Virus record (IMG/VR): IMGVR_UViG_3300030106_002109
Location: 17,578 to 38,254 of that record
Direction: 5' to 3' (one strand)
Length of the DNA stretch: 20,677 nucleotides
DNA from: a virus
In this document: in pieces, positions 1 through 12,700 of the stretch
Layout of the letters: the number at the start of each line of letters is the position of its first letter
How positions within the stretch are numbered: position 1 is the stretch's first letter
The notes under the pieces: model-generated
Database searches by the model: none
What the model was told of the DNA's origin: nothing
What the model saw: the letters and a program-made list of their open reading frames with translations, nothing else
Position numbers and translations under genes: made by a program

Positions 1-4
1 GTGT

Positions 5-49
5 TGGGTGTATTTAACCCCCTCATTTATGAGGGGTTAAATACACCCA
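5..49. repeat. Long inverted repeat (hairpin copy 1)
   Basis: A near-perfect inverted repeat pairs 6-21 with 33-48, with one bulged C and a T/A-rich loop around 26-29. It lies directly upstream of the first gene, about 25 bases before its ribosome binding site, and is followed by an A/C-rich, probably unstructured leader. There is no T-tract on either side, so it does not look like a classical intrinsic terminator. An almost identical copy is at 404-454 and a covarying relative at 1695-1741. Likely roles are a terminator for an upstream gene, an mRNA processing or stabilising element, or a protein-binding dyad. The structure is seen; the role is inferred. Confidence 0.85.
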
Positions 50-87
50 CTAACAAACAAACAATCAATCATTGGAGGTTGATTCAT

Positions 88-399
88 ATGCAAACCAACA
101 CAGAACCTAAACGGGTTAAGTGCAATCCACAGTATGTGGACGACACCGAATGGGAGCTTGATCGGACTAATCCGACTGGGATCCGTACCCGTATTAATGT
201 GTTTAGTGCGGCAACGTACATCGAAGGGTATGAGCACGAAATTACGCTCACAGTCGATGGCTCGGAGCTAGACCTGTGGAAAGTTCTACAGATCATTGAT
301 TGCCTGAATTTGGGGCATGATGATAAGTGGACTGCCGAGAACTGGGAAGTTCGAGTAGGTCAAGTTGCGGATATCCGCGCTAACGCCTTGGGAGACTGA
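88..399 (+). CDS. Hypothetical phage protein, 103 aa
   Basis: The reading frame is open from the window start, but the ATG at 88 is the likely start because a strong GGAGGT (74-79) lies 8 bases before it and the upstream part is the hairpin. The product is soluble, mixed in charge and acidic overall, with no membrane segment, signal peptide or cysteine cluster. I do not recognise a family. It stands alone: the repeat hairpins at 5-49 and 404-454 bracket it, so it may be transcribed or processed as a single-gene unit. Small early proteins of this kind often act on the host, but nothing in the sequence shows this. Confidence 0.75.
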   Translation: MQTNTEPKRVKCNPQYVDDTEWELDRTNPTGIRTRINVFSAATYIEGYEHEITLTVDGSELDLWKVLQIIDCLNLGHDDKWTAENWEVRVGQVADIRANALGD

Positions 400-403
400 G
401 GCA

Positions 404-454
404 GTTGGGTGTATTTAACCCCCTCATTTATGAGGGGTTAAATACCCCCACAAC
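404..454. repeat. Long inverted repeat (hairpin copy 2)
   Basis: This is a second copy of the hairpin at 5-49, nearly identical over about 46 bases. One substitution (C at 446 where copy 1 has A at 45) leaves a single mismatch in the stem. The outer bases GTT (404-406) and AAC (452-454) can extend the pairing. It starts five bases after the stop codon of the first gene and precedes the tRNA-like element. There is no T-tract, so it may be a processing site or a factor-dependent terminator. Confidence 0.85.
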
Positions 455-476
455 AAAAGATGCGACGGCATCTGGC

Positions 477-571
477 GGAATGTAGCTAATAGAGCAGGCC
501 ATTAGGCAACTGGCAGCACAGGCATGTGGCTGAGGGCGCTGAGGCCACGGGGTGCAAGTCCCCACATTCCA
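477..571 (+). ncRNA. tRNA-like structured RNA (possible degenerate tRNA)
   Basis: Bases 477-483 pair perfectly with 564-570, followed by an unpaired A at 571, like a 7-bp acceptor stem with its discriminator base. Bases 549-563 form a 4-bp stem around TGCAAGT, a close match to a tRNA T-arm. A D-arm-like piece (485-495) has a very short loop lacking the GG pair. A candidate anticodon arm (498-514) has a 9-base loop, or a 7-base loop without the usual U33. A long internal segment (515-548) can form other hairpins (514-532, or 526-530 with 544-548). No CCA is encoded. It may be a class-II-like tRNA, a degenerate tRNA, or a tRNA mimic. I cannot assign an anticodon. Confidence 0.4.
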
Positions 572-601
572 CGCTTCTGAGTGAGTGTCCCACCCACTTG
601 G

Positions 602-607
602 TATAGT
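602..607 (+). promoter_or_regulatory. Possible -10 promoter element
   Basis: TATAGT lies 36 bases before the ATG at 644, in the otherwise unexplained stretch between the tRNA-like element and the DUF932 gene. I see no convincing -35 box at the normal spacing, so this is only a weak candidate. Actinobacterial promoters often keep only the -10 box. Confidence 0.2.
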
Positions 608-631
608 AAATAACAATCAACAAATACACAT

Positions 632-637
632 GGAGGT
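632..637 (+). promoter_or_regulatory. Ribosome binding site deciding the ATG at 644
   Basis: GGAGGT ends six bases before the ATG at 644. The in-frame GTG at 638 directly abuts this site and would leave no spacing, so the start at 644 is preferred. Confidence 0.75.
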
Positions 638-643
638 GTGTTT

Positions 644-1624
644 ATGACATGGGAAACAGTAATTGACCACTCAAGTGGTCACGACTTTCTGACCAATGAG
701 GTCAGTGAGCATGGACGAAACGTCTTTGACGTAGCGTCTGAGGTGAATGCGGACTTCGGTTGTCACGTATCACCTAAAGGATATTTGGATCCGATAACAA
801 ACCAGTTTGTTGTCCCCAAATATGAGACAGGTAACAAACGTGGCAAGCCACGAGGCGTGTATGTGTTGCGTAATGACACGATGGTTCCCTTGGGGGATCA
901 CTCTGGTCGCTACCCACATCGTGACGGTTACAAACATGTGTTCGAGACAATAGAAACTTTGTTTCCGAATACTTGCACAGACATCACTGTGTTTGGTCAA
1001 GGTGAACGTCTTGCGATTACACAGCAGATAGGTGACAGGATCGAAATTGTGGACGGGGACTTCATTGACCCTGTTGTAATTACAATCATGTCGCTGAACG
1101 GAATGTGGCCTACAGGAATGTTTGCCTATGACTTCCGTGTTAGCTGTGCGAACATCATCAACCTTGCGGATGCTTTCATTAAGGTGAAAGCAACGAAGAA
1201 TCACGACAACATGTTGACCTTACGGTCTGCGGTGTTGGAAGCCAGTAAGGCTGAAAGTGAGCAGGTTGCGACGTTTGCACGCAAACTGAGCGAATCGACA
1301 CTTAGTGATAGTGCGTTCTATCGGATGCTTGATCGGATTATTCCGATGGCAGACATGGACGCTCCCACTAAAACTCGGAACGCTGTAGATGCGAAACGTG
1401 CTGCGATCCTTAACGCTTGGTCACAAGAAACTAATGGTGACTGGGGTAATGGATGGCTCGCATACAACGCATTCCAAGGTGCTGAACAGCATCGAATCAA
1501 CCAAGGCTTCAAGTCTACGACTGCTGCAAAGCAGAAGGGGCTAATCAAATCCTTGGACGGCAAAACACCTATAGCTGACGCTGCGGAACAATACCTCCGT
1601 GAGCAAATGTTGGTAGGTGTATGA
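644..1624 (+). CDS. DUF932-family phage/plasmid protein, 326 aa
   Basis: The product matches the general layout of the DUF932 (TIGR03299) family, which is common in phages, plasmids and integrative elements. An N-terminal beta-rich part is followed by a segment with the conserved feel of 'RVSCANIINLADA', a helical middle with 'LSESTLSDSAFYRMLDRI', and a C-terminal part containing 'NGWLAYNAFQGAEQHR'. The length is typical of the family. Its biochemical role is not established; members are often found beside replication and recombination genes. The gene has its own leader and stands alone: upstream is the tRNA-like element, downstream a nested hairpin (1641-1686). Start choice rests on the GGAGGT at 632-637. 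I am fairly sure of the family, but not of the function. Confidence 0.8.
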   Translation: MTWETVIDHSSGHDFLTNEVSEHGRNVFDVASEVNADFGCHVSPKGYLDPITNQFVVPKYETGNKRGKPRGVYVLRNDTMVPLGDHSGRYPHRDGYKHVFETIETLFPNTCTDITVFGQGERLAITQQIGDRIEIVDGDFIDPVVITIMSLNGMWPTGMFAYDFRVSCANIINLADAFIKVKATKNHDNMLTLRSAVLEASKAESEQVATFARKLSESTLSDSAFYRMLDRIIPMADMDAPTKTRNAVDAKRAAILNAWSQETNGDWGNGWLAYNAFQGAEQHRINQGFKSTTAAKQKGLIKSLDGKTPIADAAEQYLREQMLVGV

Positions 1625-1640
1625 AGATAGGCTAGGTGTG

Positions 1641-1686
1641 GGGAGGCCAGGTGATACCTAACGGTATACCTCCCTCCTGGCCTCCC
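1641..1686 (+). terminator. Nested stem-loop after the DUF932 gene
   Basis: An 11-bp GC-rich stem (1641-1651 with 1676-1686) encloses a second hairpin, ATACC (1654-1658) with GGTAT (1663-1667) around a TAAC tetraloop. It begins 16 bases after the stop codon, which suits a transcription end or an mRNA 3'-end stabiliser. No run of T follows, so a classical intrinsic terminator is not fully supported. Confidence 0.5.
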
Positions 1687-1694
1687 TATCTCCC

Positions 1695-1741
1695 CTCGGT
1701 GTATCGCACCCCTCACTTAGTGAGGGTGCGATACACCTGAG
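1695..1741. repeat. Inverted repeat (hairpin copy 3, covarying)
   Basis: Bases 1698-1712 pair with 1724-1737, with one bulged C and a TTA loop. The architecture equals that of copies 1 and 2, and the outer GGTGTAT/ATACACC arms are identical to copy 1. The middle of the stem differs on both sides in a compensatory way, which argues that the pairing is maintained by selection. It precedes the ribosome binding site of the next gene by about 25 bases through an A-rich leader. Confidence 0.85.
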
Positions 1742-1765
1742 AAAACAAATAAATCCACAAACCAT

Positions 1766-1772
1766 AGGAGGT
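1766..1772 (+). promoter_or_regulatory. Ribosome binding site deciding the ATG at 1778
   Basis: AGGAGGT ends five bases before the ATG at 1778. The earlier in-frame TTG at 1772 lies inside this site, so it is not the start. Confidence 0.75.
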
Positions 1773-1777
1773 TGAAT

Positions 1778-2149
1778 ATGTGGGTATTTACAGAGGACGG
1801 TTTCTTTTCAACCGTCGAAGATTACAAAGCTGGCAACGAAGGTGGCCTGCTTGTACGTGGCCGAGATGTGAAATCTCTTGAGAGATTCTGCGCCAAAACA
1901 AAGACTCCATTAGATTGGATTCAGACAACTCCTGAGCGTGATTACCCTTTCAGGGTAAGTGTGCCTCGGGAAGTGTGGGTCCATTACGTTATGTCTACGG
2001 CCCGTGACATTGACTACAACGACTTCAAGTCGCATTGCAAAGCGCTTGCCGCTTACAGCGACTCCGAAGCTGGGTTGACTAGTCAACAACTAATGGCGAT
2101 GGGCATGGTCTGGGCAGTCATGTACGACGACTGGGCCGAACGTCCATGA
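1778..2149 (+). CDS. Conserved hypothetical protein, 123 aa
   Basis: The product begins with 'MWVFTEDGFFSTVED', has a central 'DYPFRVSVPREVW', and continues with 'IDYNDFKSHC' and a C-terminal 'GMVWAVMYD'. From memory this layout resembles a widespread bacterial and phage conserved hypothetical family without an assigned function. There are no membrane segments or catalytic motifs that I can name. A strong ribosome binding site (1766-1772) supports the start. Its stop overlaps the next start in an ATGA arrangement at 2146-2149, so the lysozyme-like gene is probably translated by coupling to this one. Confidence 0.8.
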   Translation: MWVFTEDGFFSTVEDYKAGNEGGLLVRGRDVKSLERFCAKTKTPLDWIQTTPERDYPFRVSVPREVWVHYVMSTARDIDYNDFKSHCKALAAYSDSEAGLTSQQLMAMGMVWAVMYDDWAERP

Positions 2150-2481
2150 ACCTTTGGTTGGCTATCTGGTCAATCCTTGACTTCGCATCGGTGAATTATG
2201 AGCCACCGAATGCGGAGATCCCCGAAGTTGTTTGCGAATACTTCGCAGACGACTGCGTAAGGGCGCTGGGGATTGCGTGGTGCGAGTCACTACACAATCC
2301 CCATGCGTACAACGGGGTAGATCATGGATTATTTCAAATAAACGAACATTATTGGGGCCATGTTTTTGAAAAACATTGGCCGAAACGATACGAAGTGGTG
2401 CAGTCAACATGGATGGCGCACTACATACATGAGAACACCCGTGGTGGGTGGCGGTTATGGACTTGTGGGAGGTACAAGTGA
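2146..2481 (+). CDS. Lysozyme/transglycosylase-like protein, 111 aa
   Basis: The product has a hydrophobic N-terminus (residues 1-15, a possible weak signal or anchor). Then comes 'IAWCES' with a probable catalytic Glu47, followed by 'DHGLFQIN' (59-66) and a C-terminal 'WRLWTC'. The Glu followed by a G-L-F-Q-I-N block is the hallmark of the lysozyme-like/SLT fold, which cleaves the glycan strand of peptidoglycan. Cys46 and Cys107 could form a disulfide. At 111 residues it is a minimal version of the fold. It sits in the early strand, far from the amidase and holin, so it may be a virion or entry enzyme or an accessory lysin. It starts inside an ATGA overlap with the previous gene. Confidence 0.7.
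   Translation: MNLWLAIWSILDFASVNYEPPNAEIPEVVCEYFADDCVRALGIAWCESLHNPHAYNGVDHGLFQINEHYWGHVFEKHWPKRYEVVQSTWMAHYIHENTRGGWRLWTCGRYK
2467..2473 (+). promoter_or_regulatory. Ribosome binding site deciding the GTG at 2478
   Basis: GGGAGGT lies four bases before a GTG that overlaps the previous stop as GTGA (2478-2481). This makes the GTG at 2478 likelier than the in-frame GTG at 2448 or ATG at 2457. Confidence 0.6.
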
Positions 2482-2741
2482 CAGTTATTGCAGAAGCCAA
2501 ATGCACTATGGATAAGTGTGGGCGAATCGACCGAACCAATGTGGACGAAGAGAAACTTCGTCGTTGGATAAACGGTGAGTTAATACAAAATGTTTGGCCT
2601 GAAATGTCGGCAATAGACAGAGAGATTGTTATGCAATCTCAATTTGCCTACAGCGCTAGGCGCATCGTGGCCGAACCTATGTACATTTGCCCGAAATGTT
2701 GGGCGGTAATGGACAAAGCGTTAGGCATTGACGATGAGTGA
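2478..2741 (+). CDS. Small four-cysteine (zinc-binding-like) phage protein, 87 aa
   Basis: Cys9 and Cys14 near the N-terminus and Cys71/Cys74 (CPKC) near the C-terminus could bind one zinc ion. Between them lies 'RRWINGELIQNVWPEMSA', which resembles a segment seen in small phage proteins of unknown function ('W..GELIQ...P.LS..R'). The fold is probably a zinc ribbon with an inserted helix. The start at GTG 2478 fits the GTGA overlap and the strong ribosome binding site. The gene overlaps the HNH gene by eight bases, so it is in the same mRNA. Function unknown; DNA or protein binding is a guess. Confidence 0.7.
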   Translation: MTVIAEAKCTMDKCGRIDRTNVDEEKLRRWINGELIQNVWPEMSAIDREIVMQSQFAYSARRIVAEPMYICPKCWAVMDKALGIDDE

Positions 2742-3423
2742 GCGGCCAACCAGATATCAGAAATACAGAAACAAAAAATGCTGGGCAATTATGACCGACG
2801 GTACTCAATGCACAGGCATACGTAGGTCTAGTAAACCTTGGACAGGTCCAGGTTCACGCGACGGCCTGATTGCTTTATGCAATGGACACAACACTCACTT
2901 CATTAAATATGGTGAGCCACGTACAGACATTCCGTTGCATGCGATGATGCCTATGACGTTTGAAGAACGTGTTGAGCATTACATGAACCCTGTTAATGGG
3001 TACATACGCATAAGCCCTTATGGTTGTTTCTTGTGGCAACGCACTAAGTTGCAAAAAGGGTATGGGTTAGTTAATTCCAAGGTAATAGCTGCGAGGTGTG
3101 GCACAAAGAACAATGTGCAAACGCATCGGATGATGTGGATTTACGCAAACGGTGACATACCTGAAGGCAAACAGGTGCATCACAGTTGCGGCAACCCCTC
3201 CTGTTGCAACCCTAATTGCTTGTACTTGTTGACTGGTCCCGAAAATTCCGAAGAAGCGTCCAGGTATCACTACTGGAAAAACAAATACCAAGAACTAGAA
3301 CGAGAAATGGTAGACAAGAATAAACAAATTAAAAGTTTGGAGAGGCGTCTTGCCAAAGAAAAAAACAAAGATAAGCAAAGAGGAACGGGAGGCTTGGCAA
3401 AAAAAAGCAATGAGCAGAAATAA
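2734..3423 (+). CDS. HNH endonuclease with N-terminal zinc-finger-like region and C-terminal coiled coil
   Basis: Three parts are visible in the 229 residues. First, a Cys/His cluster (Cys16, Cys26, Cys49, His52) could be a zinc finger for DNA binding. Second, an HNH-type nuclease core includes 'GYGLV', 'THRMMWIY' (His131), 'GKQVHHSCGNPSCCNP' (149-160) and 'LYLLTG'. Third, a lysine-rich helical tail from about 180 looks like a coiled coil. Free-standing phage HNH proteins are often homing endonucleases; some help DNA packaging. The usual last His of the NP-x-H-L motif is Cys162 here. ATG 2734 is preferred over the in-frame TTG at 2728 and overlaps the upstream gene by eight bases; its ribosome binding site is weak. 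Confidence 0.8.
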   Translation: MSERPTRYQKYRNKKCWAIMTDGTQCTGIRRSSKPWTGPGSRDGLIALCNGHNTHFIKYGEPRTDIPLHAMMPMTFEERVEHYMNPVNGYIRISPYGCFLWQRTKLQKGYGLVNSKVIAARCGTKNNVQTHRMMWIYANGDIPEGKQVHHSCGNPSCCNPNCLYLLTGPENSEEASRYHYWKNKYQELEREMVDKNKQIKSLERRLAKEKNKDKQRGTGGLAKKSNEQK

Positions 3424-3440
3424 CCCTGTCATCTTTGATG

Positions 3441-3647
3441 ATGACTCATTTACTAAACAAGAAATTGAAAGAACCCGTGGCTAGATACAGCAATTTGAAA
3501 TACATCGAATGGGAACCATCCGATTTCACACGGCACGGTTTCATAGCTACCTACGCACTAGGTGGCTGTCGTTGCACGCTCTGTTCTGAGCGGTGGCACG
3601 AATGGGACCAACCGTGGAAGGAAGTAAACCGAACACCTGCTTCGTAA
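3441..3647 (+). CDS. Small Cys-rich (CxCxxC) phage protein
   Basis: The conserved-looking core is 'RHGFIATYALGGCRCTLC', a pattern found in many small actinophage proteins with a presumed zinc knuckle. There are two adjacent ATGs (3438, 3441) without a clear ribosome binding site. GTG at 3477, giving about 56 residues, is an alternative preceded by a weak GAAAGAA. The start is therefore uncertain. It lies 17 bases after the HNH gene and is followed by the dyad cluster (3686-3768), so it probably ends this transcript. Function unknown; a nucleic-acid-binding role is a guess. Confidence 0.6.
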   Translation: MTHLLNKKLKEPVARYSNLKYIEWEPSDFTRHGFIATYALGGCRCTLCSERWHEWDQPWKEVNRTPAS

Positions 3648-3685
3648 CGAAACTGTAATGTGGAATCAGAACAGGTGTCCGCTAT

Positions 3686-3768
3686 ACTAAGTAATTACTT
3701 AGTCTCCCCCAACCTCTGGTAGGTGGTTGGGGGGTACTTAGTACCACTCAGTGTCCTACCCCACTGAG
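3686..3768. promoter_or_regulatory. Cluster of four dyads before the replication operon
   Basis: Four inverted repeats sit side by side in the gap before the gene at 3780. They are an 18-base perfect palindrome (3686-3703), a 9-bp stem of CCCCCAACC (3706-3714) with GGTTGGGGG (3725-3733), a short palindrome with a TTA centre (3733-3745), and a 7-bp stem (3747-3753 with 3762-3768). The first palindrome overlaps a TATACT (3683-3688) that could be a -10 box. ACTTAGT or CTTAGTA pieces recur in the first and third dyads. The layout suits an operator/promoter region plus a terminator for the upstream genes, or a replication origin. No T-tract follows the GC-rich stem. Confidence 0.6.
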
Positions 3769-3779
3769 AGAATGACAAC

Positions 3780-4580
3780 ATGAACGAATACCCCTTACAC
3801 AAAGACAGCGAAGGTCGCTGGGTGCATACATGGGTGAGGCAGTCCACAATAAAGACTGCCGATATGTGTTTAGAAAGATTCCGAAACACTATCTTCAACC
3901 TTGTAAGCGAAGAAATAAAAGACGCAGCCACACTAGGTACTGCCTGCCACGCAGTAGCTGAGGATGCACTCAACACCCGTAAGACGGGTGGCGAGATGAC
4001 ACAACAGGACATGATCGACTCGTTCGAGATGTACTGGGAGGAAGCTCTGCCTACCATCGAAGTATGGAACAGCTATTCAGGTGAGAGCGCATACGCAGAA
4101 GGGCTACGCAAGATCGAGAACTGGCGCACCGAGGTGCTGCCAGAACTACAACCCGTAGAGGTTGAGGAATATTTCAATTTAGTTTTCCATGAAGATGACA
4201 ATAGGATTGTCAAGTTTTCTGGCACCATCGACTTAGTTGAAGAGGACAGACTATGGGACTGGAAGTTTCCTAGTCGGGACTACAGCAGGGATCGGTGGCA
4301 GTACGAACGCTGGGACGTTCAGTCAATGGCGTACTGCTGGGCTAAAGGTATTTCTAATTTCTCTTATGCGGTCATGCACCCAAAGGGTGTCGGTCGCATG
4401 GATATAGTTCGTGACGACAGCCATACAGATTGGCTTCGTCAAAAGGTCTTAGGGCTATGCCACGTCGTTGAATCCGAGATGACTAAATATCCTCTCGGTG
4501 ATGACGGCTGGTGGTGTTCTGAGAAATGGTGTCCAGCGTGGACACGGTGTAAAGGCGCAATCATAGGAGGCGCAAAGTAA
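3780..4580 (+). CDS. Cas4/AddB-like PD-(D/E)XK exonuclease with Fe-S cysteines
   Basis: The 266-residue product has the RecB-type nuclease motifs. These are 'QSTIKTADMC' near the N-terminus, 'LGTACHAVAEDAL' with the conserved His, 'FSGTIDLVEEDRLWDWKF' supplying the Asp and D-x-K, and 'QSMAYCWA' as the Q-x-x-x-Y motif. Cys30 together with Cys246, Cys251 and Cys257 forms the one-plus-three cysteine set that holds a 4Fe-4S cluster in Cas4 and AddB nucleases. The enzyme probably degrades or resects DNA ends during recombination. It opens the replication block after the dyad cluster. The ribosome binding site is weak (GAGAG). Its stop overlaps the next start as TAATG. Confidence 0.82.
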   Translation: MNEYPLHKDSEGRWVHTWVRQSTIKTADMCLERFRNTIFNLVSEEIKDAATLGTACHAVAEDALNTRKTGGEMTQQDMIDSFEMYWEEALPTIEVWNSYSGESAYAEGLRKIENWRTEVLPELQPVEVEEYFNLVFHEDDNRIVKFSGTIDLVEEDRLWDWKFPSRDYSRDRWQYERWDVQSMAYCWAKGISNFSYAVMHPKGVGRMDIVRDDSHTDWLRQKVLGLCHVVESEMTKYPLGDDGWWCSEKWCPAWTRCKGAIIGGAK

Positions 4581-5296
4581 TGGCATGGAAGCCAATGGAG
4601 CCGCACGAGCGTGCGAGCATAGAAGCACAGGTGATACTCAAAGGTGCTGTCGAACTGACAGCAGCGCAGGTATCAGCGAATGCAACAGATCCCAATGAGG
4701 ATATTCTCACAACACTGACGGATAATGCGACAGTGTTAGCGAACATTCTTGGGGATGTTAAAACACAATTAGGGGCAGCGCCCCAACCAGCAGCAGCGCC
4801 AGCGGCGGCAACAGAAACCGAAGCGGTAGCGGCTGTAACCCAAGCATTCCAAGGGGCGACAACTGCGCCTCGGGGACAAAGCCAGTATCTAGGAGATGAG
4901 GATTACGATGCGGTGCATAAGATATTCCTCGCTGAAAAGAGTGCTGGGATTGTATATGCGTCCAAAGAATCTGCGTTTATGGACAACCAGGCGATTCGTA
5001 AACTGTTTCAAACAGGAATTCGCCAGTTTCCTCAAGATTATTGGGCAGACTCAATGCGAGGTAAAGATATCCCGACAACGAAAACAGGGAAATGCGGACT
5101 CGGTGATTTCAAACTCAAGAAGGGACTGTCCATCGGAGAAGATGGACAATTCTACGTAGGCAAAGGTGACGGTAACCATCCTCTTGCAAGCAAGAGCGGT
5201 TACTTCGCTGGACTACAGAAGAACACTTCTTGGTCATGGCCTGAACGACCTGAACCAGTTGACCCACAGGGTTGGCTTGTTGGCGTAAGTGCCTAA
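4580..5296 (+). CDS. Unknown protein between nuclease and ATPase, 238 aa
   Basis: I do not recognise this family. It has a helical N-terminal part (residues 1-62, starting 'MAWKPMEPHERASIEAQ'), an Ala/Pro-rich linker (66-79), and a C-terminal basic/aromatic domain from about 100. That domain includes 'DYDAVHKIFLAEKSAGIVY' and 'KTGKCGLGDFKLKKG'. A flexible linker joining an N-terminal helix bundle to a lysine-rich domain would suit a DNA- or partner-binding protein. The gene has a strong AGGAGG (4565-4570), overlaps the nuclease by one base and the ATPase gene by eight, so it is certainly co-translated with them. A role as single-strand-binding or recombination mediator is plausible from position only. 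Confidence 0.75.
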   Translation: MAWKPMEPHERASIEAQVILKGAVELTAAQVSANATDPNEDILTTLTDNATVLANILGDVKTQLGAAPQPAAAPAAATETEAVAAVTQAFQGATTAPRGQSQYLGDEDYDAVHKIFLAEKSAGIVYASKESAFMDNQAIRKLFQTGIRQFPQDYWADSMRGKDIPTTKTGKCGLGDFKLKKGLSIGEDGQFYVGKGDGNHPLASKSGYFAGLQKNTSWSWPERPEPVDPQGWLVGVSA

Positions 5297-6287
5297 AGAA
5301 ATCAGCTTGGAGGAGGCGAGGGATCTCGTCACGGGGGCGGCAACTGCGTCCGCCCCCGAACCTCCTGCCGCTGAACCACAAGAGATCGAAGGTGTAAGCG
5401 CCCAAGATCTACGCAGACTGTTCACCCCCAAGGGGGAACAAGTACGTCGGATGCGACACGACCTACGCGCAGGCAACGAATGGAGCTTCGGAGTACGAGC
5501 CTTTGACGAGGCCACACTCGGAGGAGCAAGACCAGGGCAACTAGTAACCCTGATAGGTAGATCGCATACAGGTAAAACGTTGCTTGCGATGAACATGGTT
5601 GCGAAGAATCGCAACCATCGCACACTTTGGGTTAGCCCCGATGAAACAGAAACAATGTTTTGGGGACGATATTCATCTATTCGGTTGGAGTTCGATCAAC
5701 GAGAATGGCTAGGCCGACTCATCCGAGAGGATGCGACGGCATGGGAACGAGTCGAACAAATCATGGAGGACGAAAAGAACCTCCACTTTGAATCCACTGG
5801 CATGAGTGTCGATGATCTAGACAAAGCGCTACGGATTGCATCTACCACTTTGTGGGGAGGCAAACGACCAGAAGTTTTAGTTTACGATTTCCTAGAACTG
5901 ATCCGAGGCGGCGAAGCTGGGGACGCAGCTAGCGTCCAAGCGAAGATCGAATCGTTTAAGCAACTGGTATCTGACTGGCGATTGGTGGGAGTAATCATTC
6001 ACCAATCTGGCAGAGGTACAGGTAACCGTGGCAAAGCTGGCGGCATTGAAGCAGGCAGGTACGCATCCACAAGTGAAAGCCATTTCTTAATTGAAACATG
6101 GCGTAGGTGGGATGACACCAACCTAGACGAGGAAACTCGTGCTCATTACGAGGACGAAGTTTCCGCTGGCCTGTGGAAAAACAAAGCTGGAGATGGGGAA
6201 AAAGCTGAGGTAAACCTCACCATTGACAGCAGCGGACGTATTCTGGAGCCAGGAGTTACATGGGAACAAGGCACGTTCGATGGATAG
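5289..6287 (+). CDS. RecA/DnaB-fold ATPase (replicative helicase-like), 332 aa
   Basis: A Walker A motif 'GRSHTGKT' (90-97) and a Walker B 'EVLVYD' ending at Asp200 show a RecA-type ATPase. They are followed by 'VGVIIHQSGRG' (233-243), which sits where DnaB/RepA-type helicases place their H4 motif. The first 45 residues are low-complexity and Ala/Pro-rich. The protein is shorter than bacterial DnaB and lacks its N-terminal primase-binding domain, as is common for phage RepA/DnaB-like ATPases. It probably unwinds DNA at the phage fork or loads a partner. GTG 5289 is the likely start, coupled to the previous stop; its ribosome binding site is weak. Its stop overlaps the primase start. Confidence 0.8.
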   Translation: MPKEISLEEARDLVTGAATASAPEPPAAEPQEIEGVSAQDLRRLFTPKGEQVRRMRHDLRAGNEWSFGVRAFDEATLGGARPGQLVTLIGRSHTGKTLLAMNMVAKNRNHRTLWVSPDETETMFWGRYSSIRLEFDQREWLGRLIREDATAWERVEQIMEDEKNLHFESTGMSVDDLDKALRIASTTLWGGKRPEVLVYDFLELIRGGEAGDAASVQAKIESFKQLVSDWRLVGVIIHQSGRGTGNRGKAGGIEAGRYASTSESHFLIETWRRWDDTNLDEETRAHYEDEVSAGLWKNKAGDGEKAEVNLTIDSSGRILEPGVTWEQGTFDG

Positions 6288-7323
6288 CGCAGCAGCAAAC
6301 GTATTCAGTAACGTCTTTCAAGGGTTCCCCTATGCCTACGGCACCGACTCTGGCGGATGCCGCTGGACCCCACTCTCAACAGAACTGTTTGAGAGGCACC
6401 TAGAAGGCTCTGAGATGATCGGAATCTATCCGATGGTCTACGACCCCTATAAGAAGGGAACTGGACCAGCAGGGTTCCTACAATCAGGAGAACCTTTAGA
6501 TTCACGACCCATATATTCCGACATGAAAAGGGATTTATGGATGTGCATGTGGGGAGCCATCGATATAGACGAAGGCGACACCGACTCAGAAATTATTGCT
6601 AAAAACGCAATCAAACTATTTGAAGCCCTTGAAATTACAGCGTGGCTAGAACGATCACGCAGTAAGGGCTACCACGTCTGGGTGTTCGCTGAACAATGGA
6701 CACCCGTCACCCTCATGCGCAAAGCATTACAAGCAGTAATGCAACTCGCAGGAGGAGACTACGACGCTGTATACCCCAAATCAGATTGGCTAGACGGCCC
6801 ACCAGGAAACTACATTCGCCTCCCCTACGGAGGAGAACGACCCTACGGGCGACAAGTAATGGTCAACACCGAATCAGGGGAAACCTACGATATTTGGGAT
6901 TTCATAATAGGAGCCGAAGCAGAGAGAACCCCACTAGAAGATCTACAACGAGCAGCAGAGCTATACCAAGACCCCGAACCTGATATCCCACCACCACGAG
7001 ACTACAGCAAAGAACCACTCATGCGAATAGATGGTTCACGCCTACGAGGACTGGCGTTAATGATGTACCGTAACGGGCCAGTGGAATATTACAGACAACA
7101 CGGAGCAGGCAGAGGGCGACACGGATTCCTTAACCGTTTCGCACGAGCAATGTTTGAATCAGGATTTGAACGAGGCGACGTAGTGTCATGGACCAACGAC
7201 CTAGACTCACGACTAGGCCAATGGTACGACGAAGGCCCAAAGTTTATGGGCCGACGGGACGGCGACCGACAAATGGAACGGCTAGTGGACGATGCCCAAA
7301 AAAGAGCAACCAGACACGTATGA
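6280..7323 (+). CDS. Archaeo-eukaryotic primase (AEP) superfamily protein, 347 aa
   Basis: Three AEP motifs are visible in the expected order: 'GAIDIDEGD' with Asp95 and Asp97 (metal-binding D-x-D), 'SRSKGYHVWVF' with His132, and 'GNYIRLPYGG' (176-185). The protein probably makes primers, and some AEP members also polymerise DNA (prim-pol). The C-terminal third (about 240-347) is helical and may be a primase C-terminal or DNA-binding region. The frame is open upstream to a TTG at 6223, but ATG 6280 gives the usual 8-base overlap with the ATPase gene. It probably works with the helicase-like ATPase next door. Confidence 0.82.
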   Translation: MDSAAANVFSNVFQGFPYAYGTDSGGCRWTPLSTELFERHLEGSEMIGIYPMVYDPYKKGTGPAGFLQSGEPLDSRPIYSDMKRDLWMCMWGAIDIDEGDTDSEIIAKNAIKLFEALEITAWLERSRSKGYHVWVFAEQWTPVTLMRKALQAVMQLAGGDYDAVYPKSDWLDGPPGNYIRLPYGGERPYGRQVMVNTESGETYDIWDFIIGAEAERTPLEDLQRAAELYQDPEPDIPPPRDYSKEPLMRIDGSRLRGLALMMYRNGPVEYYRQHGAGRGRHGFLNRFARAMFESGFERGDVVSWTNDLDSRLGQWYDEGPKFMGRRDGDRQMERLVDDAQKRATRHV

Positions 7324-7657
7324 GCTAGTCATAGAAGGACGGCCCCGAACAAAGGGCCGTCCACGTATGACTCGTGGCGGACGTGCCTACACACCTAAAG
7401 AAACGGTCGAAGCAGAAAACCGTATCGTCGAAGCTGTAGGCGACAACCCTCCAGTGTTTGAAGGGCCAGTAAAATTAGAATTACATTTTACGAACGAAAG
7501 CACATACGTAAAAATCACGGCGCTACCAGATTGGGGTAAACCCAAGCTGCGTGGCGACCTTGATAATTACATCAAACTAGCTGCTGATGGGCTACAGAAA
7601 TCAGGGATCATTCCAAATGACAGAGATGTAGTTTGGGTACAGGCAGAAAAAACATGA
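7292..7657 (+). CDS. RusA-like Holliday junction resolvase, 121 aa
   Basis: The N-terminal 'GRPRTKGRPRMTRGGRAYTP' (16-35) is the RusA signature. 'RGDLDNYIKLAADGL' supplies Asp89 and Asp91, and 'NDRDVV' supplies a third acidic residue near 110-112. RusA enzymes act as dimers that cut four-way DNA junctions, which phages need before packaging recombining DNA. The length is normal for the family. The gene starts 32 bases inside the primase gene and ends in an ATGA overlap with the next, so it is tightly coupled. Confidence 0.88.
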   Translation: MPKKEQPDTYELVIEGRPRTKGRPRMTRGGRAYTPKETVEAENRIVEAVGDNPPVFEGPVKLELHFTNESTYVKITALPDWGKPKLRGDLDNYIKLAADGLQKSGIIPNDRDVVWVQAEKT

Positions 7658-8106
7658 AGTTCCAAGACCTAGATTTTTCTGAACGGCTCAACCAAATGGG
7701 CGACTTAGCCGAAGGCAAGTTTGAAGAAGTAGCCCCGTGGCCCTATACACGCTACGGCCTGAACAGGCCACCCTTTCGATTAAACAACGTTCCTCGCCAA
7801 ATTTGTTACACACCTGACTACCTGACAGAAAACTATTTAGTAGAAGTACAAGGGTTTGGGCGTAGCCAGGAAATCCACATGAAGGTAGACAAACTCAAAG
7901 CCTTAACTTGGTGGCATGAACAAATGGAAGTCTTACTGTTTTTGTACGACTCTTTATTTGACCGTCATACCTTTCTCCGATTCCACACAATCAGAGACTT
8001 GTGCCTGCAATCACCAACAAAATTTTTTCCAGATAATAGAAAAGAATATTTCGCCATACCAGCCGACATAGCATGGAGGTATGGTCAAGAAGGAATTTCC
8101 CTTTGA
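7654..8106 (+). CDS. PD-(D/E)XK nuclease-like protein, 150 aa
   Basis: The core reads 'GDLAEGKFEEVA' (Glu20), 'CYTPDYL' (Asp55), 'LVEVQGFG' (Glu64, Gln66) and a Lys-rich helix 'MKVDKLKALTWW'. This is the E...PD...E-x-(K/Q) order of the PD-(D/E)XK fold, with Gln in the place of the usual Lys. It may be a phage endonuclease, active or degenerate. ATG 7654 overlaps the RusA stop as ATGA and is preferred to an upstream in-frame TTG (7633). Position beside RusA suggests a role in DNA processing. Confidence in the fold is moderate. Confidence 0.65.
   Translation: MKFQDLDFSERLNQMGDLAEGKFEEVAPWPYTRYGLNRPPFRLNNVPRQICYTPDYLTENYLVEVQGFGRSQEIHMKVDKLKALTWWHEQMEVLLFLYDSLFDRHTFLRFHTIRDLCLQSPTKFFPDNRKEYFAIPADIAWRYGQEGISL
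8075..8080 (+). promoter_or_regulatory. Ribosome binding site directly abutting the ATG at 8081
   Basis: GGAGGT is followed immediately by ATG, with no spacer. No other start codon lies upstream in this frame. Such spacing should initiate poorly, so the downstream gene may depend on coupling with the overlapping gene upstream. Confidence 0.5.
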
Positions 8107-8464
8107 TCCTCTTGATCTTTCATGGAAAGCTCAAGGGAATCCACAACAAAAACAAACTGAAATAGAAATACTTCAAGAAGCTGCACCCTACGCAGCATTA
8201 GAAGAATCCCAAGAAGAGCGCATACAGCTACAAAACGCTGTATTAGATGCTTTCGATGAGCTAGACGAATGGGAAATCTGGTTACTGAATGCGTTGCTTT
8301 ACGAGCGGCGCAGCCTCAGAGAAGTCGAACGTATGCTCAAGATCCCTAAGACAACAGTGGCACGTAAACGTGACTACATCTTAAGGAAACTCAAACGGGC
8401 ATTAGAAAAACACCCAATAGTCAGAGACTATTTAAGTTTTCTACTCATCTACTTCATAGTCTGA
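8081..8464 (+). CDS. Sigma-70 region 4-like helix-turn-helix protein, 127 aa
   Basis: Residues 55-109 resemble sigma factor region 4: 'AFDELDEWEIWLLNALLYER' followed by a helix-turn-helix 'SLREVERMLKIPKTTVARKR' (78-97) and a basic third helix. Sigma region 2 is absent, so this is not a complete sigma factor. Similar short proteins are frequent in actinophages, where they are thought to affect transcription. The first 45 residues are acidic and Gln-rich, perhaps a flexible tail. The C-terminus is hydrophobic ('LSFLLIYFIV'), which is unusual for a DNA-binding protein. It is the last rightward gene; its end overlaps the opposing gene by 24 bases. Confidence 0.72.
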   Translation: MVKKEFPFDPLDLSWKAQGNPQQKQTEIEILQEAAPYAALEESQEERIQLQNAVLDAFDELDEWEIWLLNALLYERRSLREVERMLKIPKTTVARKRDYILRKLKRALEKHPIVRDYLSFLLIYFIV

Positions 8465-8761
8465 GTCGTCCATTGCATCAGCCGACGCAAGAATCAGGCC
8501 ACTGATTATTGCAAACACATGGCTGTGCAAAGGACTGTTCTCAAAATCGTTAATCATTGACTCCGCAGAGAACGCCATAGCGTGCTCAAACGGCAACACA
8601 ATCATTACCGCTAACGAATCATCATGCCATTTAGCATGATTCCCGTCAGACACATCTAACAGATGAGAATTGTTTTTTATGTCAGTGTAAATTTCCGAGG
8701 CAAGATAACCGTACTCTTCGGACCAGTCCTCCCATTGAGCAGACTCCTCCTCGGCGCTCAC
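8441..8761 (-). CDS. Small acidic protein after the holin, 106 aa
   Basis: I do not recognise a family. The protein is strongly acidic and starts with 'SAEEESAQWEDWSEEYGY'. A mid-section contains 'AVMIVLPFEHAMAFSAES', a hydrophobic stretch 'VFAIISGLILASADA' lies near the C-terminus, and the end is 'DDSDYEVDE'. GTG 8761 is preferred because it overlaps the holin stop as TAATGTG. The frame is also open upstream to 8851, with GTG codons at 8794 and 8800, but those starts lie inside the holin gene. Being the last leftward gene after amidase and holin, it may modulate lysis. That is a guess from position only. Confidence 0.55.
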   Translation of the reverse strand: MSAEEESAQWEDWSEEYGYLASEIYTDIKNNSHLLDVSDGNHAKWHDDSLAVMIVLPFEHAMAFSAESMINDFENSPLHSHVFAIISGLILASADAMDDSDYEVDE

Positions 8762-8762
8762 A

Positions 8763-8966
8763 TTAACCGACCAACGAAGCTGACCGCGAATCACCGACAC
8801 GAGTCGCAGCAACAGCCTTACCAATAGCAATGACAGCAGCAACCGCACCAATTTTCAACGAATCCGTCCAGTCAGGACCAGGGACAGCCATAGCGCCTAC
8901 AAAACCCTGGCAGAACGTAGCCAAACCACGTTCAAAACAATCTCTCAAAAAATCTAGATTAAACAA
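8763..8966 (-). CDS. r1t-like phage holin, 67 aa
   Basis: The layout 'FLRDCFERGLATFCQGFVGAM...DWTDSLKIGAVAAVIAIGKAVAATRVGDSRSASLVG' follows that of r1t-type holins of actinophages. An amphipathic start is followed by two hydrophobic segments (about 14-28 and 37-54) and an R-V-G-(N/D)-x-x-x-A-S-L-V ending. Holins permeabilise the inner membrane at lysis time so that the endolysin can reach the wall. The gene starts with TTG, chosen because AAGGAGA (8971-8977) is correctly spaced and no ATG or GTG is available. It lies nine bases after the amidase gene, forming a lysis cassette. Confidence 0.8.
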   Translation of the reverse strand: MFNLDFLRDCFERGLATFCQGFVGAMAVPGPDWTDSLKIGAVAAVIAIGKAVAATRVGDSRSASLVG

Positions 8967-8970
8967 AATA

Positions 8971-8977
8971 TCTCCTT
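8971..8977 (-). promoter_or_regulatory. Ribosome binding site deciding the holin TTG start
   Basis: Read on the minus strand, AAGGAGA lies about five bases before the TTG at 8966. It overlaps the stop codon of the amidase gene (8976-8978), a compact stop/ribosome-site fusion. Confidence 0.75.
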
Positions 8978-9725
8978 AGACGGACCAGAGGTACCGCCAA
9001 GTTACAGGGCCAACATTTCCATCCTTGCGGATAGGAAAGTTGGCTTGAAATTCTCGTACAGCTTTTTGTGTCGCACGACCGAAAATGCCGTCCACCACAA
9101 GCTGTGCGTTAATGCGTTCATTCAAACGTGCCTGCAAAGTAGCCACGTTCTTCCCCCTAGACCCACGGTGTAAAGGCTTACGGCGGAAATCAACCCCCAA
9201 AGACTCCATCTCTTCCAACCGAACATCCCAATCCAAAGCAGTAGGCGTATTCGTCATCGGCATCCCAGAATGAATCCAGTCAGCTAAACCGTCACCAGGG
9301 CAATAAGTGGTGCCGAAATCTCTATGACATTTGACCCACAAATGGTCGCCATACTCTTTCCGCATTGCCTCTACGACGGTAAGAATCGCCTCCTTCCCTG
9401 TCTCAGTTAGATCGTCACCCGAACCAATATAGGAAATGGAAGTGGTTTTAGAGTTCTGCCCTTTCGTAGCCGCACCTTGCTTCCAACCACGACCCTCAAA
9501 GATCTCGCCAGTCTCACCAGAAACCAACCAGTTGTAAGCGATAGAACGCCAGCCCCGAGTCTTGACATGATACTTGTCATGCTGACGGACTCGATCCCAC
9601 GGAGAGGACGGAGAACCAGTCGTATGATGCACAACAACACCTATGGGGACACGGCGAAATTCGCTTAACCTCTTACCAGAGTCAATGGCCCCCCATTCGT
9701 CACGGGAAATGAACTGCATACCCAT
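8976..9725 (-). CDS. Endolysin: N-acetylmuramoyl-L-alanine amidase (PGRP/Amidase_2) with peptidoglycan-binding domain
   Basis: Residues 1-155 form an amidase_2/PGRP domain with the zinc ligands in 'VVVHHTTG' (His33/34) and 'CHRDFGTTYCPGDGL' (His134, Cys142), plus 'IAYNWLV' (Tyr64). The enzyme cuts the bond between N-acetylmuramic acid and L-alanine in peptidoglycan. Residues 185-249 are a PG_binding_1 domain ('SRGKNVATLQARLN', 'VDGIFGRATQKAVREFQ', 'VGPVTW') that anchors it to the wall. There is no signal peptide, so release through the neighbouring holin is expected. ATG 9725 or the second ATG (9719) may be used. The upstream gap is 14 bases and contains a short repeat. Confidence 0.9.
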   Translation of the reverse strand: MGMQFISRDEWGAIDSGKRLSEFRRVPIGVVVHHTTGSPSSPWDRVRQHDKYHVKTRGWRSIAYNWLVSGETGEIFEGRGWKQGAATKGQNSKTTSISYIGSGDDLTETGKEAILTVVEAMRKEYGDHLWVKCHRDFGTTYCPGDGLADWIHSGMPMTNTPTALDWDVRLEEMESLGVDFRRKPLHRGSRGKNVATLQARLNERINAQLVVDGIFGRATQKAVREFQANFPIRKDGNVGPVTWRYLWSV

Positions 9726-9750
9726 AGGGTAGTTCGTCCCTATAGGGTAG
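9721..9750. repeat. Direct repeat with palindrome at the giant gene/endolysin junction
   Basis: ATAGGGTAG occurs twice, at 9724-9732 and 9742-9750, 18 bases apart. CCCTATAGGG (9738-9747) is a perfect 10-base palindrome. The repeats span the stop codon of the giant gene and the start of the endolysin gene. It could be an operator or RNA element controlling lysis, or chance. No promoter box is clear. Confidence 0.45.
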
Positions 9751-12700
9751 CTCCAGCCAAAGACCGCTCTTGTTTCATTTCATCTCGCATCTCATACATG
9801 CGAGACTGAAGCTCTCGGTCCTGCTCCCACTTAGTGTTCGTACGCAAACCAGCACCAAACATAAATGAAATCCAAGTAGACACAGCACGCTTCTGATAAC
9901 GCTCCTCATCAGGGAACAAGCGACGCAAATCACTCAAAGTTGGCAACAACTGAGCCATAGCATGAAGCTCATAATCCTTCATTGCCCACTGGCCCTTACT
10001 GTTCTTCGCAGCGATACCAGGCAACGACAACATATCCATCAAGAAAGGAACCTTCGCATACGCACGAGGCACAACCTGATACTTACCGTCAAAGTTGTAG
10101 CCCTTCCAAAGATTCTGTTTAGCTTTCCACTCATACGGAGCTTTGATCAACGGAGTGATCTGCGTACCAAACGAAGCCAACGCTGTCTGTATGCGATCCA
10201 TAGCAGATTCATCTCTATCGAATCTCAATGACGGTTCAATAAGCTCCATCGGAGCTTTGAACGGCATGTCAGGAAGAATAAACATATTCTCACCGTCGTA
10301 CGTAAACGGAGTCTGGATAGCACCCTGACGTTGCATCCACTCAGGAATAACCTTAGGACGCTCCTGCCCGTACTCCATCTCTTTCTTAAGCGAAGTGTAT
10401 TTATTGAACACCGCTGGACGACGAGCAGCCATCTCAAACATCAAAGGCATATTCTTCCGAGTCCACGTATAGAACGGAACAACCTTCTTAACAACATTTC
10501 GTTCAAAGTCAGACAAATCGTCATAATCGAAATGGAATTTCATTACATTATCGAAAGCCTCATCCGCAGAATTACCTTTCAACAACGTGTCAAACCCCAA
10601 ACTTCCTCGCAAGAAAGTTTCAGTAGCCATACCAAAGTTCCTAGACAACCTCAAAGGCAAGTTCTGAGAAGAAGCAGGGTTCATGGCAGTTGCCAAATTG
10701 ATCTTTTTTCCACCAATCTTTACGGTAGTTTTTCCAACTCCAGGTCCAGCAGTATCGACAAACTCACTAGCAACCTGCGCACCAGCAGCACCCAACGAAC
10801 CAGTCTCAGCTAACTCACGCACATAATCAACATGTTCAGCGCTTACATTGTTGGGGTTGATCCCACGAGCACGCATCGCCTTACGCATCTTGGATGCCCT
10901 ATCAGGCATCCCCAACCGCACAGCTTCTTCCTCTTGGAACTTCCAATACGCACGCATAAATCTGCGATACGACGACCAGTTCATGCCAGCCAGATGGTTC
11001 ATAAATACACCTGACATAAAGTTCCTGCCGTGGAACCCAGGCTTTGCAATCATGTAAGCACGCAACAAGTTGTGCAGCTTGTCGTATTTACGGAAGAACG
11101 CTTTAGCGCCCCCACGGGCGACGAAGCGTTCAGCAGCCACCATACTTTCAACAATGTTTGGTGGCCCTTGAGCAATGGCACCTATCGGCTTCATGCCTGT
11201 AGAAAAAGCCGCTTCCAAAACAGCTTCTCTTCCACCGATCCTATGAATTTCTGTTCGCTGTTCGGCGGTAGAACTGAGTAGATCAAACCAGCCTTCTGCC
11301 CCATCTTCCATTTCATCCAACGCCATACGTATGCGTTGACCGTCAGCTTCAATAAGAATATTGGTAGCTATTTTCAAATCGATAAGATCGTCACTAGGTA
11401 TGTCGTAAAGACTTACACCGTCACCAATTCCTAAAGTATTTAACGTATCAACCGCTGCATCAATTTGACGTTGCGCTGCATCTAACTCCCCAACCAAAAT
11501 GCGGTTCTGAGCCGCTGTCGCAACTCGCTGTTCCGCTATTTCAGCAGCAGCCTCACGTTGATCGAGAGCGTACTCAAACGAAGTTTTAGCTTGATTGAAA
11601 TCTCCCTTAGCTAATTCTAAATCAGATACAACTTGCGACCGTTCCATAACCAACTGTTCCAAAGCATCTCCCTCTGGGAGATCTTCTACGACTTTCGCAG
11701 CAGGAAACGCATCAACCACGTTTCTGTCCATGTCCTCAAGGAATTGGGAAGCACCCACAAAATCAGAAGTCAGTTCAAAATCAGGATCAAATGGATAACC
11801 TGCCCCGTGACTTCCACCTTTGTAATTGATAGCCAGAGGATCGGTCACCATGTAGTTCGGCCACCAGGAATAGTTCTTTTTATCAAATGTTACGGGCATC
11901 TTGGAAACCATGTCCGTAACGCCTTCTCGGTTCATCCATGCGATGGTGTGGTAACCATCGACAGATAAAGAAGTCTTAAACTTTTCAAGAAAATCCATGT
12001 ACATTCGGCCAGCAACTCTCTTGATGTCCGCTGCATCTACAGCGGCTTCAGCGAATTCCAAAGCAGTACCCGTGACAGAACCATACTGGCCACTTCTAGG
12101 TTTGATTGTTCTACCGCCTACAACATTAATCCACCCTCTACCAAACGACATAGAAGCGTCCTTATGCTTAAGTTTTTCATAAGAGGCACCACCTACTAGC
12201 CTCCGCTCTATACCCTTGCCATCCCACACGTCAGGATTCAAGTTCGGATCAATGTCATTAAAAAGTTTGAGTGCTGCATCCAAAAACTCTTCAGGGTTAC
12301 CCAAAAAAGCTGTAAGTGTATCGGCATCAATCCCCAGATCGACTGCCTGGTGAAACTTGCGCCCGTGTCTGCTTCGTAACAGAACAGCAAAATTGATTAG
12401 CTCGTGCCCTTTCAAGTTCTTCAATTTTTGAGCAACCTCTTGATACTCAGGTCGCACAGAAACAGGGTCAAATGCTTTTATTCTTTGAGCAATTTCAATA
12501 GGTTCCAAAACATCTTCTTTGGCACCAGTGATTGCTCCCGTTTTACCCCACTCATCCAGCTTGTTCAAAGTTTCTATGAACTGATTAAAAAATTCAGGAT
12601 CGTCATCTAAGACTCTCCCCACTTGATCGAATATCAGTTCATCACTAGAAGTTACTGCGGACTGTCTTGCTTTCTTGCCACTCTCTGTCAGTTCAGTTAA

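Follow-up and report, generated by a model that had tools for sequence, protein, structure and literature searches.

A repeated two-part leader with conserved RNA-level pairing before most genes of a rightward block in an uncultured phage

The viral record IMGVR_UViG_3300030106_002109 comprises 38,254 bases, and the stretch analysed here, called the window, covers its positions 17578 to 38254 (20,677 nucleotides). L124 and the window are two locus ids for the same contig. The beginning of the window carries part of a rightward block with three long hairpins (copies 1 to 3), the genes led by copies 1 and 3, a tRNA-like segment behind copy 2 and a DUF932 gene (Table 1). Past the DUF932 gene and ahead of copy 3, a further strong hairpin (GGGGAGGCCAGG ... 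CCTGGCCTCCC) is located at 1640–1690. On the minus strand, a single ORF of 2826 residues (9740–18220) is found among leftward genes, and a 754-residue ORF contains a long Gly-Thr run made from 12- and 18-base repeats (19668–19770). A Pro-Thr-Val-type run is located near the start of L124.

Table 1. Hairpins, short stems, genes and related features of the block; positions refer to the window unless another locus is named.
Feature	Position	Strand	Details
Long hairpin, copy 1	4–50	+	arms TGGGTGTATTTAACCCC / GGGGTTAAATACACCCA, bulged C; model score 73.8 bits
Short stem with Shine-Dalgarno (SD) sequence, copy-1 gene	63–84	+	AATCAA ... TTGATT, loop TTGGAGG
Gene led by copy 1	88–399	+	103 aa; no Pfam-type function, no PHROG match
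Long hairpin, copy 2	404–452	+	model match 405–451, 72.4 bits
tRNA-like non-coding segment after copy 2	474–572	+	acceptor-like GGAATGT/ACATTCC, T-arm-like GGGGTGCAAGTCCCC, enlarged middle arm
Short SD stem, DUF932 gene (644–1624)	626–641	+	ACACA-TGGAGG-TGTGT; no long hairpin directly upstream
Long hairpin, copy 3	1695–1740	+	arms GGTGTATCGCACCC / GGGTGCGATACACC, bulged C; 24.1 bits
Short SD stem, copy-3 gene	1760–1773	+	AACC-ATAGGA-GGTT
Gene led by copy 3	1778–2149	+	123 aa; no PHROG match
Promoter-like TATACT fused to perfect palindrome ACTAAGTAATTACTTAGT	3683–3703	+	
Second TATACT/ACTAAGTAATTACTTAGT site	L124 14208–14228	+	
Divergent hairpin	L124 15703–15745		before a gene, same kind of place
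Divergent hairpin	L124 16046–16086		before a gene, same kind of place
tRNA-like segment in relatives	L131 2120–2188; L220 6857–6926; L224 6640–6710		

The three long hairpins are present where the original prediction had placed them, and each surpasses all of its 200 dinucleotide shuffles in folding (z of −6.9, −3.7 and −9.0 for copies 1, 2 and 3). Their bulged C and the compensated inner block, TTAA/TTAA versus CGCA/TGCG, had been read correctly, as had the missing T-tract: at most three T occur in the 8 nt past the hairpin in 63 of 64 distinct copies from the record and related phages. However, the outer arms GGTGTAT/ATACACC, described as common to all three, do not hold for copy 2, whose 3′ outer arm is ATACCCC, and the loop is shared by copies 1 and 2 but not by copy 3, which has a different one. 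In addition, copy 2 is followed by the tRNA-like segment and not directly by a gene.

Searching the record with the outer arms yielded one more copy, and a palindrome scan of positions 1–18000 and the window yielded all others. Altogether the record contains ten hairpins of a common plan and two divergent ones, all within one rightward block, and many more are present in relatives; no hairpin of the family was found by the palindrome scan among the leftward genes, including terminase and portal. The copies found with a covariance model lie at L124 14616, 14936, 15235, 15544, 16349, 16570, 17172 and 17581 (the last being copy 1 of the window) and at window 405 and 1695, copy 3 being absent from the model's own alignment. 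The covariance-model search that the original prediction had proposed thus recovers ten copies in the record, three of them in the window. The outer arms as such were rejected as the signature of the element, because none of 80 control viral loci fetched for the GGTGTAT/ATACACC pair matches the model.

The apical CCCC-C-TC/GA-GGGG with its bulged C is constant while the arms of the stem vary freely. A core-based scan of 114 related loci and the window gave 106 hairpin readings from 32 sources. Among 23 distinct 7-base arms, whose register was set by the C and G runs and not by pairing, 98.8% of cells are paired versus 52% after shuffling, a figure favoured by selection in that the scan demanded at least six outer pairs. 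Without this arm filter, 21 of 21 core matches have complementary flanks in 12 versions, two of them in a shifted register. One step of the analysis took 47 of the 49 distinct hairpins, leaving out those of L136 and L165. Covariation was assessed in alignment A2, 28 sequences (26 distinct) chosen for a single-C bulge and equal length. Here 12 of 18 pairs are changed on both sides, the covariation score amounts to 0.366 compared with 0.090 in shuffled alignments (none of 500 reaches the observed value), and sliding the partner column by 1 to 3 positions lowers the paired cells from 92.5% to at most 57%. Two of the three outcomes that would have refuted the original prediction, a lack of further copies and a lack of covariation in related phages, did not occur, the covariation being strong. 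Six apical pairs are invariant in the alignment, the sequences themselves having been found through the core; because most copies of the relatives were located in this way, the fixed apex is partly a matter of ascertainment, but the record's own copies were located as palindromes. Orthologous genes also carry different arm versions. The MSNWIEG gene is found behind three versions in different phages, and before the MESYYMDG gene the whole arm pair is swapped in otherwise near-identical leaders.

Regarding their place, 78 model matches were considered, hand-picked from the result tables with one strand each and with several contigs present twice (e.g. L124/window, L139/L226). A gene with a ribosome site lies behind 63 of the matches, at a median hairpin-to-start distance of 26 nt (interquartile range 23–28), whereas the distance from the previous stop to the hairpin has a median of 7 and an interquartile range of 5–71 among the matches examined. 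The place of the hairpin is tied more to the downstream start than to the upstream stop. No start is called behind the other 15, seven of which lead segments that are tRNA-like or begin so and three a second conserved non-coding type; the remaining five are L162, L165, L176, L191 and L171, the gene of L171 being cut by the contig end. The orientation is likewise biased. Where the 5′ side bears the extra C, 63 of 76 hairpins are followed on the same strand by a ribosome site and a start within 45 nt; where an extra G is borne by the 3′ side, this applies to 1 of 20 (L165); the 30 readings beyond the 76 are mostly the same palindromes on the opposite strand. In the palindrome scan of 12 loci a start follows 34 of 37 core hairpins; the 29 other hairpins precede a start in 7 cases, some of which are located inside genes.

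In most leaders the start codon is closely preceded by a second element, a short stem whose loop contains GGAGG or GGGAG. Its sequence varies with compensation, as in CCGAA-TGGAGG-TTCGG, GCGGC-AGGGAG-GCCGC, TCGAC-TGGGAG-GTCGA, CCGAT-GGAGGAA-ATCGG and GGGTA-GGAGG-TACCC, and predicted folding of whole leaders gives two hairpins. The short stem has a mean length of 4.27 bp in 55 distinct leaders compared with 3.08 ± 0.12 bp when the 5′ flanks are reassigned (reached by none of 2000 permutations), with 12 of the 55 having a weak stem of 3 bp or fewer. A wider scan, run independently of the core, yielded means of 4.08 bp in 127 hairpin-led starts and 2.86 bp in 697 others, and stems of at least 4 bp in 71% and 26%, respectively; in both statistics related leaders count as independent, exact duplicates alone having been removed. 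Within the record the contrast is modest (4.4 in 10, 3.0 in 17 and 3.5 in 6), in a comparison that excluded starts without a ribosome site and in which a few of the start coordinates deviate by one to two bases. Judged by the compensatory changes, both stems pair at the RNA level, the long hairpin being an RNA structure under selection.

The tRNA-like segment is conserved behind the same hairpin in L131, L220, L223 and L224. Its acceptor-, D- and T-arm-like parts are conserved, and the arm in the anticodon position is variable, either enlarged or shortened. ARAGORN calls a tRNA (tRNA-Glu) in L224 only, and the fold z ranges from −0.6 to −3.7, the member in the window reaching only −1.1. The second non-coding type, at L124 15590–15702 and also behind hairpins in L145 and L221, folds as a long stem (−54 kcal/mol in L124). 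Since some hairpins lead such segments, the hairpin is not purely translational. The original prediction had included neither these hairpin-led non-coding segments nor the SD-presenting short stem, nor the way in which orthologous genes exchange arm versions.

The hairpin block is flanked by the two promoter-like sites of Table 1. With up to two mismatches, TATACTAAGTAATTACTTAGT occurs on the plus strand at exactly two places of the record, 14208 and 21260, and at corresponding places in several relatives. Each site is followed by a hairpin of its own (14231–14259 and window 3696–3743). The fusion of TATACT and palindrome could possibly represent an early promoter with its operator. A search of L124 14100–18000 for sites of the sigma-70-like type revealed no excess after the hairpins, with 2 matches versus 5.4 expected by shuffling. 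We infer that a single long transcript spans the block.

The position before starts, the presence of both genes and non-coding segments behind the hairpins, the absence of both a T-tract and promoter-like sites nearby, and the conserved pairing suggest a leader in two parts. The first would be the long RNA hairpin, usually a few bases past the previous stop codon, and the second, about 25 nt further on, the short stem with the SD sequence in its open loop, ahead of the start codon. If the block is made as a single long RNA, the long hairpin would stop a nuclease or cover the new 5′ end whenever this RNA is cut or decays, so that the downstream cistron or non-coding RNA would be kept as a unit. 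The ribosome site in its open loop would then allow the unit to be translated without help from its neighbours, and the fixed apex, bulged C included, is probably a recognition site for a nuclease or some other protein. It is in line with this proposal that a hairpin or ribosome site near the 5′ end can stabilise downstream RNA, as stated in the passages cited from PMC3997798. That the two-part leader turns each cistron of a long early RNA into a 5′-protected, independently translated unit appears to us about evenly poised between right and wrong. Several observations count against it. Invariant apical pairs would be needless for a general 5′ protector and suggest a more specific function, and with the previous stop just 3–10 nt away in most copies, the base of the stem could be opened by a ribosome that terminates there. 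Moreover, some starts of the block, such as window 644, have a short stem without the long hairpin, some hairpin-led starts have weak short stems (the 12 of 55 given above), and the short-stem contrast within the record is modest. Were the proposal correct, this phage gene block would be built of interchangeable RNA leaders, each providing end protection and an open ribosome site.

A tentative variant, to which we attach clearly less confidence, is a post-transcriptional code used by a clade of uncultured phages, in which the class-specific apex on a free stem would mark each early cistron and non-coding RNA for one processing or protecting factor while the SD stem would set translation separately. 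Early expression would in that case be tuned cistron by cistron at the RNA level with very few promoters. The apex is also central to an RNA regulon, where it would bind a phage or host protein that switches all early units together, the arms serving as a mere scaffold. The same apex on changing arms in 10 of the 12 hairpins of the record, the six invariant pairs (in sequences found through the core), the unpaired C retained beside the apex and the other apical classes on variable arms in relatives are all compatible with such a switch. Still, no candidate protein for the apex was found, and even an apex without function could stay uniform if the copies had spread or been homogenised recently; we regard the regulon as unlikely. 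PeSL cassettes have reportedly been described for T4-type phages, by Arbiol in 2010 and Comeau in 2014, and the hairpins might mainly be recombination seams, repeats for shuffling gene cassettes as proposed for those PeSLs. Near-identical repeats at gene boundaries, and the same gene behind different hairpin versions and upstream sequences in different phages, fit this idea. Recombination seams need shared sequence, however, and not compensated change in both arms, and they leave the SD stem and the orientation bias unexplained, which makes a main role of this kind improbable.

Hairpins that end or attenuate transcription between genes would account for strong stems directly past stop codons, and a T-tract is reportedly absent from some terminators of actinobacteria. 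Against this stands the scarcity of T behind 63 of 64 copies, which led to the rejection of an identity as intrinsic terminators, and the distance is fixed to the next start and not to the previous stop; since no promoter-like site follows the hairpins in L124 14100–18000, termination would also leave the next gene without a start of its own. A role in termination or attenuation therefore has a small probability. Least of all do we expect the hairpins to be DNA sites, operators or replication sites, and not RNA structures. They are inverted repeats between genes, and for the extended start-associated sequences (ESAS) of mycobacteriophages the authors of the ESAS paper favoured a DNA-binding role, but the freedom of the arm sequences while pairing is kept, for which DNA operators were rejected, and the one-sided bulge facing the downstream gene make this very improbable.

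In its layout the element falls among the intercistronic and start-associated elements of phages. RNase III sites lie between the early genes of T7, and the present hairpins resemble them in standing between early genes of a presumed single transcript; they differ in being tied to the downstream start and repeated with a fixed apex. In most copies the stem has about 17–20 pairs, with a bulge and often a mismatch, and is shorter than the 22 nt taken as the minimum RNase III target in one study (PMC5371410). Processing by RNase III is possible. The RNase III part of the original prediction is not specifically supported, whereas its wider notion of a repeated regulatory or RNA-processing element is borne out by the further copies, the strong covariation within and between phages and the fixed place before starts. 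PeSLs (PMC4503421) are likewise stem-loops that bound shuffled phage genes; in them a terminator-like stem-loop is coupled with an early promoter, whereas the present hairpins have no T-tract and, for sigma-70-like sites in L124 14100–18000, no promoter behind them. The 5′-terminal stabilising stem-loops of Emory et al. 1992, as cited in PMC3997798, share the stem upstream of a ribosome site and a less structured spacer, but are presented there as single leaders at the transcript start, whereas the stem here is repeated inside a gene block.

Strikingly alike in layout are the start-associated sequences (SAS) and ESAS of cluster K mycobacteriophages. In the passages cited from PMC3203893 and PMC12699233, these are repeats in one orientation before the starts of non-structural genes, with wide gene gaps, the ribosome-site repeat having the complementary ends GGGNNNNNNNCCC and an upstream inverted repeat accompanying about half of them. 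An inverted repeat upstream of a start-associated sequence in a subset of non-structural genes is present here as well. However, SAS is one conserved 13-bp sequence, whereas the short stem described here has many sequences, and the same passages report little support for RNA hairpins in ESAS, in contrast to the strong compensatory change observed here. With up to two mismatches, the 13-bp SAS motif GGGATAGGAGCCC has no match on either strand of the whole record. Given the absent motif, for which SAS membership was rejected, and the differing evidence for pairing, the leader is not a member of SAS/ESAS, though it may work alike. SAS/ESAS, PeSLs and RNase III sites are thus similar to the element in layout, and its description was not found in open-licence PMC papers. 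The leader offers a case with clear RNA pairing for the role of start-associated repeats, which was left open in the cluster K phages.

Among viral contigs, 337 terminase relatives were found, and the leader could serve as a signature by which the strategy might be followed across this large, uncultured group. The core CCCCCTC[A/T]TTTATGAGGGG is present in 15 stretches of viral contigs. The covariance model, built from the 28-sequence alignment, matches 16 of the 27 sources taken together as close relatives (window included). Of 80 loci with a terminase, it matches 16, but many of these loci stop short of the early block. The closest named relative, MW202803 (50% in the terminase, 41% in the portal), has no model match up to an E-value of 1. 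Positions 1–8000 of the window have no nucleotide match in named phages, and the copy-1 hairpin yielded only matches over about half of the query in named phages and plasmids. Rfam 15 covariance models gave two matches on the window up to an E-value of 1, both far under the gathering score and outside the block. A genome scan returned just two contigs, binned as Acidimicrobiaceae and Euryarchaeota and both without a model match, which may be mis-binned phage contigs.

In more distant relatives, the wider scan shows other hairpins at the same place. Its 127 hairpin-led starts comprise 58 of the CCCC-TC class, 18 of a GAA..TGAA class (e.g. TGAACGAAGTGAA), 12 with CTCTCT/AGAGAG and 39 unclassified. 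In L180, L163, L186 and L204, hairpins of the second class with the apex TGAACGAAGTGAA or a near version stand on very different arms before ribosome-site stems; an apex of this type could form tandem G·A pairs. The CCCC-TC core itself is also found in L134, a contig for which Puniceispirillum phage HMO-2011 is the best named match, and in the unplaced contigs L125, L127, L130, L132 and L136; neither L132 nor the leader of L134 has a match in named phages. Its occurrence there implies that the element is not confined to this clade or arose more than once. In the HMO-2011-like contig L134 (4731–4749) and the similar contigs L133 and L130, the same core is carried on different arms before a ribosome site.
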